Of a stretch of DNA of 43,267 nucleotides, positions 21,911 to 26,886 are shown piece after piece. Both the position numbers and the translations under genes were made by a program. Below the pieces are notes generated by a model. That model did no database searches. It was not told the DNA's origin and saw only the letters and a program-made list of their open reading frames with translations. Numbering within the stretch: the stretch's first letter is position 1; each line of letters starts with the position of its first letter. This DNA is from Desulforamulus putei DSM 12395 (GTDB lineage Bacteria > Bacillota > Desulfotomaculia > Desulfotomaculales > Desulfotomaculaceae): NCBI RefSeq assembly GCF_900129195.1, contig NZ_FQUY01000023.1, positions 1 through 43,267 of the forward strand, read 5' to 3'.

Positions 21911-21948
21911 TACATTTTAAGTAAACAGTTGCCTGGGAGGTGCCTGGC

Positions 21949-22926
21949 TTGGCCAGGAGACATATTGTTGGTGGACTGGATATTGGCACCACAAAAGTGG
22001 TGTCAGTGATCGCGGAAGTCAGCCCTAACGGCTACCCTGTCATCAAGGGGTTGGGAGAATGTCCCACCCTGGGAGTTCGTAAGGGTGTGGTTGTTGACAA
22101 AGCCTCATTAGGCAAGTCCATCGCCCATGCTGTAGGGTTGTCGCAAGCCATGGCCGGCGAAACCATCAGTGAATTTTATGGTTCCTTTCCGGTTGTTAGT
22201 CAACTGACTGGAACTTTGCAGATTACCGATGAGCAGTTATCTGAAAGCATTGCCATGGCAGGGGTGAAAATCCTGCAAGTAATTCCGTCAGTAATTGCTT
22301 CAGGTGAAGCAGTTTTGACCGATACTCATAAAAAAATAGGCACGGTGTTAATGGACCTGGGAGGAGCCGTGACCGGTTTAGCGGTTTTTGATCAGGGGGT
22401 GCCCGTTTACACCCATTCACTGCCCATTGGCAGTGAACATATTACCAGCGATTTAGCGGTGTGTCTGCGGACCTCTATCAGTGAAGGAGACCGGATCAAG
22501 CGGTCCCTGGGTCTGATTGAGCCGGACCCCGCAAGCACTTTGGAAATCAGCGGTGTAGGGGGGCATGAAAGAAGGAAAGTGCCTGCCGGCGCAGCCAGAG
22601 ATATTATAAAATCACGAATCCAAGAAATTTTTGAGCTGGCCCATCAGGAATTAAGCCAACATTTCAGGCTTGCATCATTAACCGGTGGATTCATTTTGAC
22701 AGGTGGTGGGTCTTTATTAAAGGGAGTCTTGGATTTGGCCATTTCCCAAATGAATTGTTGCAAGGTGGCAGTTGGTTCCCCCGCCAAGGTAGGTATACCC
22801 AGGGAGGAATGGACCAGCCCCGTGTACGCTTCAGCCATTGGACTGGTACTCTATGGAGCCAAACGAAGTACCCGCCGCTCAGGACGCCTTTCCGGATGGC
22901 GTGAAGTTTTAGACAGGTTTATGTAA
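21949..22926 (+). CDS. ftsA: cell division protein FtsA, short form
   Basis: A 325-residue actin-like protein expected to tether FtsZ to the membrane. Actin-family phosphate motifs are visible: GGLDIGTTKVVSVIAE near the N terminus, LMDLGGAVTGLAVF in the middle and GGFILTGGGSLLKG late, then SPVYASAIGLVLYG. The last residues (RLSGWREVLDRFM) could form the amphipathic membrane-targeting helix. Usual FtsA proteins are over 400 residues; here about 70 residues of subdomain 1C appear absent between QITDEQL and AMAGVKILQVIPS. TTG 21949 has GGGAGG eight bases upstream; the GTG at 21940 overlaps that site. Forty bases separate it from ftsZ. Confidence 0.85.
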   Translation: MARRHIVGGLDIGTTKVVSVIAEVSPNGYPVIKGLGECPTLGVRKGVVVDKASLGKSIAHAVGLSQAMAGETISEFYGSFPVVSQLTGTLQITDEQLSESIAMAGVKILQVIPSVIASGEAVLTDTHKKIGTVLMDLGGAVTGLAVFDQGVPVYTHSLPIGSEHITSDLAVCLRTSISEGDRIKRSLGLIEPDPASTLEISGVGGHERRKVPAGAARDIIKSRIQEIFELAHQELSQHFRLASLTGGFILTGGGSLLKGVLDLAISQMNCCKVAVGSPAKVGIPREEWTSPVYASAIGLVLYGAKRSTRRSGRLSGWREVLDRFM

Positions 22927-22966: not shown

Positions 22967-24019
22967 ATGCTTGACTTTGAATTGGACCTGGATCATTTTG
23001 CGAACATTAAAGTAATCGGTGTCGGGGGCGGCGGCAATAACGCGGTGAACCGCATGATCAGCGCCGGGTTGAAAGGCGTTGAGTTTGTTGCGGTTAATAC
23101 AGACGCCCAATCACTGTTCTTGTCCCAAAGCAACCACAAAATACAGATTGGCACCAAACTGACCAAAGGTTTGGGTGCCGGAGCCAACCCGGAAATCGGC
23201 TGTAAAGCCGCTGAAGAAAGCCGTGACGAAATTATGCAGGCCCTCAAGGGCGCCGACATGGTCTTTGTTACCGCCGGTATGGGCGGTGGCACCGGAACCG
23301 GAGCAGCGCCGGTGGTGGCTGAGATTGCCAAAGAACTTGGCGCCCTGACCGTTGGCGTTGTTACCAAACCCTTTACTTTTGAAGGAAGAAAAAGGCTTAC
23401 CCAGGCGGAACAAGGAATTGAGAATTTAAAGAGTAAAGTGGATACCTTAATTACCATCCCCAACGACCGTCTATTACAGGTCATTGATAAGCATACTTCC
23501 ATTGTGGAAGCTTTTCGCATCGCCGATGACGTCCTGCGCCAGGGTGTTCAGGGTATTTCCGACCTGATTGCCGTACCCGGCCTGATTAACCTGGATTTTG
23601 CCGATGTTAAGACAATTATGAAGGATACCGGTTCTGCTCTGATGGGAATCGGCAGCTCCACCGGAGAGAACAGGGCCACCGAGGCGGCCCGCATGGCCAT
23701 CTCCAGTCCCCTGTTGGAAACCTCCATTGAGGGTGCCAGGGGCGTATTGTTAAATATTACCGGTGGTTCCTCCCTGGGCCTGTTTGAAGTCAACGAAGCA
23801 GCAGAAATTATTGCCCAGGCGGCAGATCCGGAAGCCAACATTATTTTTGGCGCAGTGATTGATGAGAGAATGAACGAAGAAGTACGGGTAACCGTGATTG
23901 CCACCGGTTTTGATCACCATGTACCTGCGAGAAAAGAGAAGAAAAAACCGGAAATGGATATTAAGCCCTTTGCCAGCCACGATGACCTGGATATTCCGGC
24001 CTTCCTGCGCCGACGTTAA
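22967..24019 (+). CDS. ftsZ: cell division protein FtsZ
   Basis: A 350-residue tubulin-like GTPase that forms the Z ring. The N-terminal [20 protein letters not shown] block is present, as are the tubulin signature GGGTGTG (residues 106-112) and the T7-loop [12 protein letters not shown] very short linker leads to the conserved C-terminal peptide [12 protein letters not shown] that binds FtsA. The linker is only about 20 residues. ATG 22967 follows GGAGGAGG. It is the last gene of the division part of the cluster and is followed by a terminator. Confidence 0.97.
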
Positions 24020-24116
24020 GAATTGGACCTACCCGGATTAACCAGCAGGTTAAACCCATCATTTACTACAAAAATGTAGAACTAACACTAAAAAAACCTG
24101 GAATTAATTACCAGAT

Positions 24117-24151
24117 ATTGACAAGTTTCCCTGACCCTGGCGTTGTATAAT
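24117..24151 (+). promoter_or_regulatory. spoIIG-type Spo0A-dependent promoter of spoIIGA-sigE
   Basis: TTGACA at 24118-24123 and TATAAT at 24146-24151 are separated by 22 bases, far from the 17 of a normal sigma-A promoter. This is the unusual spacing I recall for the B. subtilis spoIIG promoter. A Spo0A-box-like sequence, CTTGTCAAT on the minus strand (24117-24125), covers the -35. A second, weaker one, TGTAGAA at 24075-24081, lies about 80 bases before the predicted start near 24158, matching the two-site layout of spoIIG. Confidence 0.65.
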
Positions 24152-24167
24152 ACTGCCAGGGTTTTTT
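24134..24167 (+). terminator. Rho-independent terminator of ftsZ
   Basis: ACCCTGGC (24134-24141) pairs with GCCAGGGT (24155-24162), followed by a run of Ts to 24167. The 13-base loop contains the TATAAT of the spoIIGA promoter. Confidence 0.75.
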
Positions 24168-24253
24168 GTTCCTGGTTTAGATGGAATATTTGGCTTAACT
24201 GAGCCATATGATGGTATTGACCACCTTTGTGTTTTATGATGGGGTAGGCACAG

Positions 24254-25162
24254 ATGAGACAAGTGGTCTACTTAGATGAAATTATATTTGTAAACTTGGT
24301 GATGAACCTTACTGTGCTTTGGCTAACGTCCAGATTTATCGGGAAAAAAGGTTCCCCTGCCAGGATGATAACCGCTGCAGCAGTGGGGTGTATTTATGCC
24401 TTGGTGGTTTTTGTCCCCGGTTTGGGCCTGGCGGCTGGCTTGTATGCCAAATTATTGACAGCGGTTATGATGGTTTTAATAGCCTTTGGATTTGCCCCTT
24501 GGAAAAAGGTTTTGCGCAGTTTCCTTTATCTTTTGCTGGCTGGTTTTGCCGTGGGCGGGATTGCTTCCGGTCTGCACTACCTGTGGCAAAATACGCTGGT
24601 TGTTCAATCAGACGGCCGGTTGGCTGAAATTGGGTACAACAAGTGGCTGGTTTTATCCTGCACCGTAGCTTTGTGTTACTGTGCGGGGAAATGGGGAGCC
24701 ACCCTCTGGCTCAAGCGTGCAGGACAAACCGCCGATAAAATACCTTTGACTGTCACCCTGTGGGGGAAAAAGGTTTCCCTGGAGGCGCTGGTAGATACCG
24801 GCAACCAACTGGTCGATCCCTTGAGTCAGCACCCGGTTGTGATTGTGGAATATGAAGTTTTGAAGCCATTGCTGCCTGAAGAAATTTGCGGGCTTTTCCA
24901 TGAGGGGAAGACCCGGGACGGGTCTCACATGATCCTGTCCCTGTCCGAAACATCCTACGCCAAACGCCTGAGGTTGATACCCTTTCAGTCCCTGGGCAGG
25001 GAGAACGGTATATTATTAGGAATTCGACCGGATGTCATTGAAATCCGCTATAACGATAAAAAGCAGCAGGTTAAAGATGTGGTGGTAGGAATTTATGATC
25101 AAAAACTTAGTCCTGAGACCGCCTACAGGGCTTTGCTGCACCCGCAATTGCTGGCTTCTTAG
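24254..25162 (+). CDS. spoIIGA: sigma-E processing peptidase SpoIIGA
   Basis: A 302-residue membrane-embedded aspartic protease that cleaves pro-sigma-E at the sporulation septum after signalling by SpoIIR. The N-terminal half has about five hydrophobic segments beginning VVYLDEIIFVNLVMNL. The C-terminal half carries the protease motif EALVDTGNQLVDPLS with catalytic Asp181, close to the position in B. subtilis. Near the end RLIPFQSLGRENGILLGIRPD is typical of the family. ATG 24254 follows a GGGG-rich site. It is transcribed with sigE, its substrate gene, 33 bases downstream. Confidence 0.93.
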   Translation: MRQVVYLDEIIFVNLVMNLTVLWLTSRFIGKKGSPARMITAAAVGCIYALVVFVPGLGLAAGLYAKLLTAVMMVLIAFGFAPWKKVLRSFLYLLLAGFAVGGIASGLHYLWQNTLVVQSDGRLAEIGYNKWLVLSCTVALCYCAGKWGATLWLKRAGQTADKIPLTVTLWGKKVSLEALVDTGNQLVDPLSQHPVVIVEYEVLKPLLPEEICGLFHEGKTRDGSHMILSLSETSYAKRLRLIPFQSLGRENGILLGIRPDVIEIRYNDKKQQVKDVVVGIYDQKLSPETAYRALLHPQLLAS

Positions 25163-25195: not shown

Positions 25196-25921
25196 TTGAA
25201 AAACGCCTGGCATTTTAAAATACTGATCCGGCTCTATGTGGCCCGGGTTATTCACTGGCTGGGGTACCGGCAGGAAGTTCATTATGTAGGCAGCAGTGAA
25301 GCTTTGCCCCCGCCGCTTTCCAACGATGAAGAGAATGATTTGATTGAGCGGCTGGGCAGCGGGGACGTCAAGGTCAAAAATATACTTATTGAAAGAAACC
25401 TGCGGCTGGTGGTGTATATTGCCAGAAAGTTTGAAAATACCGGTGTGGGTATCGAGGACTTGGTATCCATCGGCACCATTGGTTTAATTAAAGCCGTCAA
25501 CACCTTCGACCCGCATAAAAAAATAAAGCTGGCCACTTATGCTTCCCGATGCATTGAAAATGAAATTTTAATGCATCTGCGAAGAAATAACAAAACCCGT
25601 TCGGAAGTTTCCTTTGATGAACCCTTAAATATAGATTGGGACGGTAACGAATTACTCCTGTCCGATGTGCTGGGAACGGAAACGGATATTATTTACAAAA
25701 ACCTGGAAGAGGAAGTGGACAAGAAGCTGCTGCACCAGGCCCTGCTGAAATTATCCGGTCGTGAGAGGCGAATTATGGAGCTTCGTTTTGGGCTAAACAA
25801 CGGGTCAGAAAAAACCCAAAAGGAAGTGGCTGATATGTTGGGGATCTCCCAATCTTATATTTCCCGGTTGGAAAAGCGAATTATTAAGCGTTTAAAAAAA
25901 GAAATTCATCGCCTGGAGTAA
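25196..25921 (+). CDS. sigE: RNA polymerase sporulation sigma-E factor (pro-form)
   Basis: A 241-residue sigma-70 family protein controlling early mother-cell genes. The first 29 residues form a hydrophobic/basic pro-sequence. Cleavage is expected just before [13 protein letters not shown], by comparison with B. subtilis pro-sigma-E. Region 2 shows [17 protein letters not shown], then [19 protein letters not shown] and [17 protein letters not shown]; region 4 shows the helix-turn-helix [23 protein letters not shown] 25196 follows GGAGGGAG. It forms an operon with spoIIGA and ends at a strong terminator. Confidence 0.96.
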
Positions 25922-26038: not shown

Positions 26039-26112
26039 AACCTGTAAGGTCAAGAGCAAACGTTTTATCACTGGTACCACCGGTATTAGAAACAACGTTG
26101 GGAGGCCGATCA

Positions 26113-26886
26113 ATGCTGGTAAACAAGGTCGAGATCTGCGGAGTGAATACATCCAAACTTCCTGTACTAACAAACAGTCAGATGAGAACTTTGTTTGAAG
26201 CAATGCAACAAGGAGATAAGGATGCCAGAAATGAGCTGATTAACGGCAATCTCAGGTTGGTACTCAGTGTTATACAACGTTTTACCAACCGTGGCGAGTA
26301 TGTGGACGACCTGTTCCAAGTAGGCTGCATCGGCCTCATGAAGGCCATCGATAATTTTGACCTGAGCCAAAACGTAAAATTTTCTACCTATGCAGTGCCT
26401 ATGATCATCGGTGAAATAAGGAGATACCTGCGTGACAACAACCCCATCCGGGTGAGCAGATCCCTGCGGGATGTTGCTTATAAAGCTTTGCAGGTGAGGG
26501 ACAGCCTGGTCAATAAATATTCCAGGGAACCCTCCATAAATGAAATTGCCGGAGAACTAAAAATACCCAGGGAAGAAATCATCTTTGCTCTGGATGCCAT
26601 CCAGGAGCCCATCTCCCTGTTTGAACCCATCTATCATGACGGGGGAGACCCCATTTTTGTGATGGATCAAATCAGTGACGAAAAAAACCAGGACTTAAGC
26701 TGGCTTGAGGAGATTTCCATCCGGGATGCCTTAACAAGGCTCAGTGACAGGGAAAAGCATATTTTAACGCTGCGGTTTTTTGAAGGAAAGACACAAATGG
26801 AGGTGGCCGAGGAAATCGGCATTTCCCAGGCTCAGGTTTCCCGCCTGGAGAAAGCTGCCCTCAACCACATGCGAAAGTATGTATGA
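26113..26886 (+). CDS. sigG: RNA polymerase sporulation sigma-G factor
   Basis: A 257-residue sigma-70 family protein for late forespore genes. The N-terminal VEICGVNTSKLPVL motif is diagnostic for sigma-G (the segment known for anti-sigma and Gin interaction). Region 2 shows NGNLRLVLSVIQRFTNRGEY followed by DDLFQVGCIGLMKAIDNFDL; region 4 shows QMEVAEEIGISQAQVSRLEK. ATG 26113 has GGGAGG seven bases upstream; a TTG 15 bases earlier lies inside that site. Separated from sigE by a terminator, so independently expressed. Confidence 0.96.
   Translation: MLVNKVEICGVNTSKLPVLTNSQMRTLFEAMQQGDKDARNELINGNLRLVLSVIQRFTNRGEYVDDLFQVGCIGLMKAIDNFDLSQNVKFSTYAVPMIIGEIRRYLRDNNPIRVSRSLRDVAYKALQVRDSLVNKYSREPSINEIAGELKIPREEIIFALDAIQEPISLFEPIYHDGGDPIFVMDQISDEKNQDLSWLEEISIRDALTRLSDREKHILTLRFFEGKTQMEVAEEIGISQAQVSRLEKAALNHMRKYV

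Follow-up and report, generated by a model that had tools for sequence, protein, structure and literature searches.

Promoters of the spoIIG type, in which an over-long spacer separates the two hexamers and transcription is controlled by Spo0A, are already known. The spacer of the B. subtilis promoter is 22 bp, and the 0A boxes at spoIIG are said, by the title of Baldus 1994, to be weak. PMC12090719 places the effect of Spo0A at spoIIG after the closed complex, and PMC3485338 gives an about tenfold lower affinity in C. difficile for a C4A change in the 0A box. In the relevant passages of PMC3789822 and PMC7438776, the one promoter named before C. difficile spoIIGA is of the sigma-A type.

The locus described here lies in a stretch of 43,267 nucleotides of Desulforamulus putei DSM 12395, analysed as a whole and referred to as the window. 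It shares with spoIIG of B. subtilis and C. difficile the operon, the sigma-A-type -35 and -10 elements, the over-long spacer and, if weakly, sequences resembling 0A boxes over the -35 and ahead of it. It differs in that the -10 sits in a terminator loop, an arrangement seen at 0 of 40 ftsZ-adjacent loci outside the order studied, and in that a sigma-E-like promoter follows. The same hairpin resembles an ordinary intrinsic terminator in its GC-rich stem, its U-run and its position after a co-directional gene, but its loop of 8-11 nt holds the full -10 of the next operon, a feature conserved across the order. Searches of open-licence literature turned up neither a spoIIG promoter placed in the loop of a terminator nor a sigma-E promoter before spoIIGA; the classic spoIIG work is in subscription journals. 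Because ftsZ is transcribed during growth, when expression of sigE is expected to do harm, spoIIG needs insulation.

The spoIIG locus of the window

The genes ftsA, ftsZ, spoIIGA, sigE and sigG stand in a row, and in a profile search the flanking genes passed the curated cut-offs for FtsZ, SpoIIGA, SigE and SigG. The features are as follows.

22967-24019, + strand: ftsZ (TIGR00065, 460 bits), co-directional with spoIIGA; in this genome the hairpin would stop read-through from it
24075-24081, + strand: degenerate Spo0A (0A) box TGTAGAA, 43 nt upstream of the P1 -35
24117-24125, - strand: CTTGTCAAT, weak 0A-like box overlapping the -35, the reverse complement of ATTGACAAG at 24117-24125
24118-24123, + strand: P1 -35, TTGACA
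24124-24145: P1 spacer, 22 bp
24133-24142, + strand: hairpin left arm GACCCTGGCG, within the P1 spacer; 10-bp stem
24146-24151, + strand: P1 -10, TATAAT, in the hairpin loop
24154-24163, + strand: hairpin right arm TGCCAGGGTT, containing the P1 start predicted at about 24158 from the position of the -10
24162-24167, + strand: terminator T-run of six T, which would double as early transcribed sequence of P1
24183-24212, + strand: P2, a sigma-E-like promoter, with GGAATATT at 24183-24190 and CATATGAT at 24205-24212; start expected near 24219
24254-25162, + strand: spoIIGA, the pro-sigma-E processing protease (TIGR02854, 231.7 bits)
25196-25921, + strand: sigE (TIGR02835)
26098-26886, + strand: sigG (TIGR02850)

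The occurrence of TATAAT in the loop of a terminator-like hairpin between ftsZ and spoIIGA-sigE-sigG is confirmed as real. An earlier note on this DNA had described a spoIIG-type promoter, with TTGACA and TATAAT 22 bp apart and the -10 inside the loop of a terminator hairpin; the distance is as claimed (24118-24123 to 24146-24151), the promoter type is borne out by conservation in relatives, and the nesting by both the fold and its conservation in relatives. The stricter detector used below found no separate terminator between ftsZ and the P1 -35 in this genome, and Rfam over 23900-24400 returned only sub-threshold, implausible matches.

Two side observations belong to the neighbourhood of the promoter. 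Directly before the P1 -35, TGGAATTAATTACCAG at 24099-24114 forms an imperfect inverted repeat, and a CCA-rich core recurs at that place in the genus and in several families. The FtsA homologue (21940-22926) has an unusual start or N-terminal part: relatives align mainly to its second half at 22-39% identity, compared with 63-99% for the adjoining FtsZ.

Fold and chance background

For the RNA of 24124-24172 the folding energy is -17.2 kcal/mol, whereas shuffled versions average -7.94 (sd 2.11); this is a z of -4.39, and none of 200 shuffles did as well; over the wider stretch 24060-24200 the fold z is just -1.64. The 134 nt from 24157 on, in which the P1 hairpin is absent, give a fold z of -1.26. 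On both strands of 381,001 bases of the same genome there are 196 copies of TATAAT, seven of which are enclosed by a helix scoring at least 6, and a T-rich tail accompanies one of the seven (1 of 196 overall); of the 20 promoter-like copies, those with a -35-like hexamer, none is nested. A chance origin of the nesting is rejected on the strength of the shuffles, the genome background and the conservation. A generic consensus scan lists neither P1 nor the hairpin, because it is limited to spacers of 16-18 and loops of 3-8.

Conservation of P1 and its spacer

Relatives were drawn from a single order, presumably Desulfotomaculales. A first set of 60 relatives yielded SpoIIGA in 58, and 101 genomes of the order yielded it in 96; a class-level search did not extend beyond this order. 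The comparison covered upstream stretches from 97 genomes, of which 93, from 46 genera and 17 families, were kept. P1 sites were picked by -35/-10 similarity alone, with spacers of 20-23 allowed and the hairpin ignored, which gave 95 picks. Those of G027 and G044 (spacers 20 and 23) were dropped as not orthologous in place, the G027 pick overlapping P2. No pick was obtained in G061, which has a stem around a weak TAGACT, or in G066, which is cut by a contig end, and G009, a partial match, was left out. The locus of G027 (L026) has a strong P2 motif, yet in the 420 nt upstream of spoIIGA nothing resembling P1 stands where it usually does, and P1 may have been lost or displaced there. The set from outside the order started from 80 named loci; the 12 that do or may belong to the order were removed, leaving 68 that are largely from Paenibacillus.

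Among the 95 picks the spacer is 21 bp in 69, 22 bp in 24, and 20 and 23 once each, so that 21 bp, not the 22 bp of the window, is the commoner value. Lack of spacer conservation had been set beforehand as what would count against the promoter reading; the spacer is 21 or 22 bp at every one of the 93 kept sites (20-23 allowed). In the window P1 directly precedes spoIIGA-sigE, and here as at the kept sites it consists of TTGACA/TATAAT-like hexamers across a 21-22 bp spacer. Outside the order, where 15-25 bp was allowed, 59 of 60 scored sites have 21 bp and 8 of the 68 loci have no site. Since the long spacer is present there without the hairpin, it belongs to spoIIG promoters in general and does not result from the hairpin.

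Spo0A boxes

The 0A-like boxes claimed for this promoter are both present (24075-24081 and 24117-24125), but the upstream TGTAGAA is weak, lacking the contacted C4 of the 0A core, and is conserved in some families only. Within the genus a box with at most one mismatch occupies the window's box position in six of nine genomes, as TGTAGAA in five and as exact TGTCGAA in one. More widely, 15 of 46 genera have a box with at most one mismatch in the 80 nt upstream, where 7.7 would be expected, and the reverse 0A motif (core TGTCGAA) peaks at the -35 itself across genera. Conservation of a box at a fixed position is strong in families f1, f14, f16 and f18, and many other genomes show none; of the 15 f16 genomes, 13 have exact TGTCGAA at a distance of 32, 33 or 42 nt upstream of the -35, and near-matches occur in f14 and f18. 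Judged by these patterns, control of P1 by Spo0A through weak boxes is likely. Most f16 sites (e.g. L156, L161 and L170) have an ATAACA-like hexamer as the in-register -35, with GACA 10 bp upstream beside the exact TGTCGAA, an arrangement suggesting tandem 0A boxes in 10-bp steps.

The nested hairpin in the order

Of the 93 genomes, 74, from 34 genera and 14 families, have a terminator-like hairpin with four or more bases of the -10 in its loop. With a stricter detector 67 of 93 are nested, and just 7 of the 26 others have a separate terminator. A Watson-Crick helix score of at least 6 is reached by 67 of 93 genomes of the order and by 4 of 60 outside it. The loop is 8-11 nt long and holds the complete -10, and the stems vary among genomes: CCCTGGC/GCCAGGG, CCCCGGTT/AACCGGGG, AGTCTGGT/ACCAGACT, CCCTGACC/GGTCAGGG, CCTCGGC/GCCGAGG and AGTGCCGGTGTT/AATACCGGCACT.

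The two arms vary together. With one genome per family (n=17), arms score 7.44 as a helix with their own partners and 4.56 (sd 0.40) with permuted partners, no permutation of 2000 being as high; with one genome per genus (n=46) the values are 6.60 and, for cross-family swaps, 4.37 (sd 0.24, maximum 4.96 of 200). In these positive tests the register was free and was re-optimised alike for real and swapped arm pairs. Fixed-column covariation in an alignment anchored on the -10 was negative, with 55.8% paired against 54.4% shuffled, a score of 0.185 against 0.194 and thus no covariation above the shuffles, because the arm registers differ, the distance from arm to -10 varying by a few bases. At the single variable position of CCXGG...CCYGG the genus states are 10 T-A, 8 C-G, 3 T-G and 4 C-A, a weak association (Fisher p 0.047). 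Mismatches of the G-U type outnumber those of the A-C type 10 to 3, with 12 of A-G/G-A, an asymmetry that is suggestive only.

The hairpin is also polar: in 67 genomes the 8 nt after the right arm contain on average 5.96 T, while the 8 nt that precede the left arm contain 1.90 A. Such a one-sided T-run points to one-directional selection at the level of RNA, as expected of a terminator and unlike a DNA operator. A stable GC-rich hairpin with a T-run is accompanied by compensatory pairing in the register-free tests, the fixed-column test not being positive, and the neighbour comparisons place it where co-directional transcription must stop.

Neighbouring genes

Where ftsZ lies within 440 nt upstream, 47 of 50 loci of the order are nested, and in all three that are not (G012, G019 and G036) the promoter is preceded by a separate terminator, compared with 7 of the 47 nested ones. 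When ftsZ at any distance found (up to 1300 nt) is counted, 59 of 66 loci are nested and all seven non-nested ones have a separate terminator, those of G019 and G040 passing only the looser rule and being missed by the stricter one. At ftsZ-adjacent loci outside the order the picture is reversed: none of 40 is nested and 30 have a separate terminator, with 2.1 expected from shuffles. The difference in separate terminators between 7 of 47 (nested, order) and 30 of 40 (outside) gives a Fisher p of 1.8e-8 with kinship ignored.

The hairpin also occurs where other genes precede spoIIG. Neighbour orientation was assigned by homology of open reading frames among genomes and by Pfam on ten of them; assignment by the longest open reading frame alone was ambiguous owing to shadow frames and was dropped. 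In family f8 (19 genomes), a same-strand SelD-like (AIRS) gene ending 25-100 nt upstream goes with nesting in 7 of 7, and a divergent nearest conserved reading frame with nesting in 0 of 8. Two further members of f8 are non-nested and have a separate terminator, G089 with SelD 364 nt away and G040 with ftsZ; G098 is nested. In family f3 a co-directional SpoIIM-like gene (below cut-off) precedes three nested sites of three (G011, G037, G053), and a divergent prephenate dehydratase (G045) or DAHP synthase (G078) precedes none of two. SurE in G022 and a homologous reading frame in G058 and G088 are co-directional, and all three sites are nested. Eight relatives in the window's own genus are all nested with ftsZ 540-832 nt away or, in G001, not found, and in most of them a DUF2007-like reading frame (Pfam was run on one) lies between ftsZ and spoIIGA. 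Two cases count against the rule: G095 (f8) is nested although its sole annotatable upstream reading frame, weakly GerPC-like, is divergent, and in G020 the site is nested and a divergent gene lies 375 nt off.

The hairpin had been taken for the ftsZ terminator. It does follow ftsZ here, but it is not tied to that gene, others preceding it elsewhere. What it tracks is the promoter together with a need to stop incoming transcription, so that insulation of spoIIG in general is the role indicated by these comparisons.

A second, sigma-E-like promoter

The leading motif common to all 97 downstream stretches is TGTCATAAa-N13-GGCCATATAATGGTA, here called P2, with 40 sites in 48 training genera and a mean score of 22.2 against 4.2-5.3 in five shuffled runs. 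It exceeds the 99th percentile of its own shuffles in 83 of 93 genomes of the order, on part of which the matrix was trained, and in 4 of 46 outside. Its elements and spacing agree with the sigma-E logo legend in PMC517825, which gives 12 bp between an 8-nt and a 10-nt element. P2 is thus like sigma-E mother-cell promoters in its ATA-type -35, its CATA-type -10 and the 12 bp between elements, as described in that legend, and differs from them in standing ahead of the operon of sigE itself and in the conserved GGTA that follows the -10. The same motif, at scores above the shuffled 95th percentile, stands before other mother-cell genes of the lineage, namely spoIIIAA (20 of 29), spoIID (12 of 29) and spoIVA (9 of 29), and is found inside these genes in 0, 1 and 0 of 29.

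A genome-wide search with a sequence-only P2 model, in which 150 of 1528 first-look candidates were scored, returned P2 itself (E 7.5e-4) and, among the scored candidates, one other and weak match (L195, G000:C23:374366-374398, E 0.686); with that coverage the search says little about the regulon. P2 had been overlooked at first reading. Its sigma-E-like sequence implies autoregulation of sigE/spoIIG across the order as a prediction, and if P2 is used a second 5' end is expected near 24219.

A probable one-way insulator and alternative explanations

The interpretation of the earlier note is supported, with corrections: a spacer of 21 bp is the commoner one, there is no tie to ftsZ, the upstream box is weak and P2 had gone unseen. 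The account that probably applies is that P1 is the Spo0A- and sigma-A-type spoIIG promoter with its -10 in the loop of an intrinsic terminator, that the whole acts as a one-way insulator, and that P2 amplifies. The sequence itself shows the anatomy, the conservation, the arm covariation and the neighbour dependence, and its evolution supports a function of the hairpin, its polarity and its link to upstream transcription; the start, the termination, the escape and the dependence on Spo0A and sigma-E are inferred. RNA polymerase arriving from the co-directional upstream gene, ftsZ here, would transcribe both arms; with both arms in the RNA the hairpin and the U-run would form and transcription would stop before spoIIGA. 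Polymerase starting at P1, at about 24158, would begin inside the right arm, and since its transcript would lack the left arm the hairpin could not form and it would escape the terminator and proceed. The sigE gene would in this way be kept off during growth while the operon retained its own promoter, and P2, further downstream, would then boost expression of the operon in the mother cell.

With the terminator placed beyond the promoter elements, each terminating polymerase must cross P1. This geometry allows reciprocal interference, in which upstream polymerases, besides terminating, would sweep P1 on their way to the stop, so that ftsZ transcription during growth would occlude spoIIG, and Spo0A~P and polymerase loaded on P1 would conversely keep ftsZ transcripts from reaching the terminator. 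The conserved placement of the terminator downstream of the -35 and -10, unlike that at the 30 of 40 outside loci, makes traversal of P1 unavoidable and favours such interference, but DUF2007-, SpoIIM-like-, SurE- and SelD-like genes replace ftsZ elsewhere, which argues against order-wide selection for coupling to ftsZ, and we regard interference as an unlikely explanation of the nesting. Equally speculative is a mutual-exclusion switch, in which transcription from upstream (ftsZ here) would silence P1 while ending in it, a P1 loaded with Spo0A~P would cut the upstream transcript short of the 3' hairpin that protects it, and P2, which lies downstream of the entire element and so is not swept by polymerases that have terminated, would take over once sigma-E is active and lock the mother-cell state.

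A role in the DNA itself, as a protein operator or as a cruciform that exposes a single-stranded -10 and aids opening despite the long spacer, might be read from the perfect inverted repeat centred on the -10 and from a spacer 4-5 bp over the usual 17; the one-sided T-run, the retention of the long spacer where there is no repeat (59 of 60 outside sites with 21 bp) and the loss of the repeat beside divergent neighbours (0 of 8), which promoter opening does not predict, make it highly improbable. In many genomes GGG and then a T-run come right after the expected start, as though the right arm and T-run were kept as early P1 transcript (A/G-GGG-TTTTTT) with a use in, for instance, promoter escape or UTP-sensitive reiterative initiation; we give this very little credence, as it leaves unexplained a complementary, covarying left arm and the loss of the hairpin beside divergent neighbours. 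A coincidence of compaction, likewise highly improbable, with an ordinary terminator and an ordinary promoter overlapping in a short intergenic region, would suit those ftsZ-spoIIGA gaps of just about 150 nt but hardly the persistence of nesting in gaps of 500-1200 nt with intervening genes or its near absence at other TATAAT copies (1 of 196).

Implications

The locus is a warning for annotation pipelines in which terminators and promoters are sought independently of each other, under the usual limits on spacer and loop. The conserved, sigma-E-like P2 suggests positive feedback at sigE, which goes unmentioned for C. difficile in the relevant passages of PMC3789822 and PMC7438776. The arrangement also makes promoter occlusion between genes of division and of sporulation a question to consider, and it offers a compact and testable candidate for a one-way insulator. 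At most scored loci outside the order the terminator stands before the promoter; in this order the two are fused, and the fusion appears to have been kept by compensatory change.
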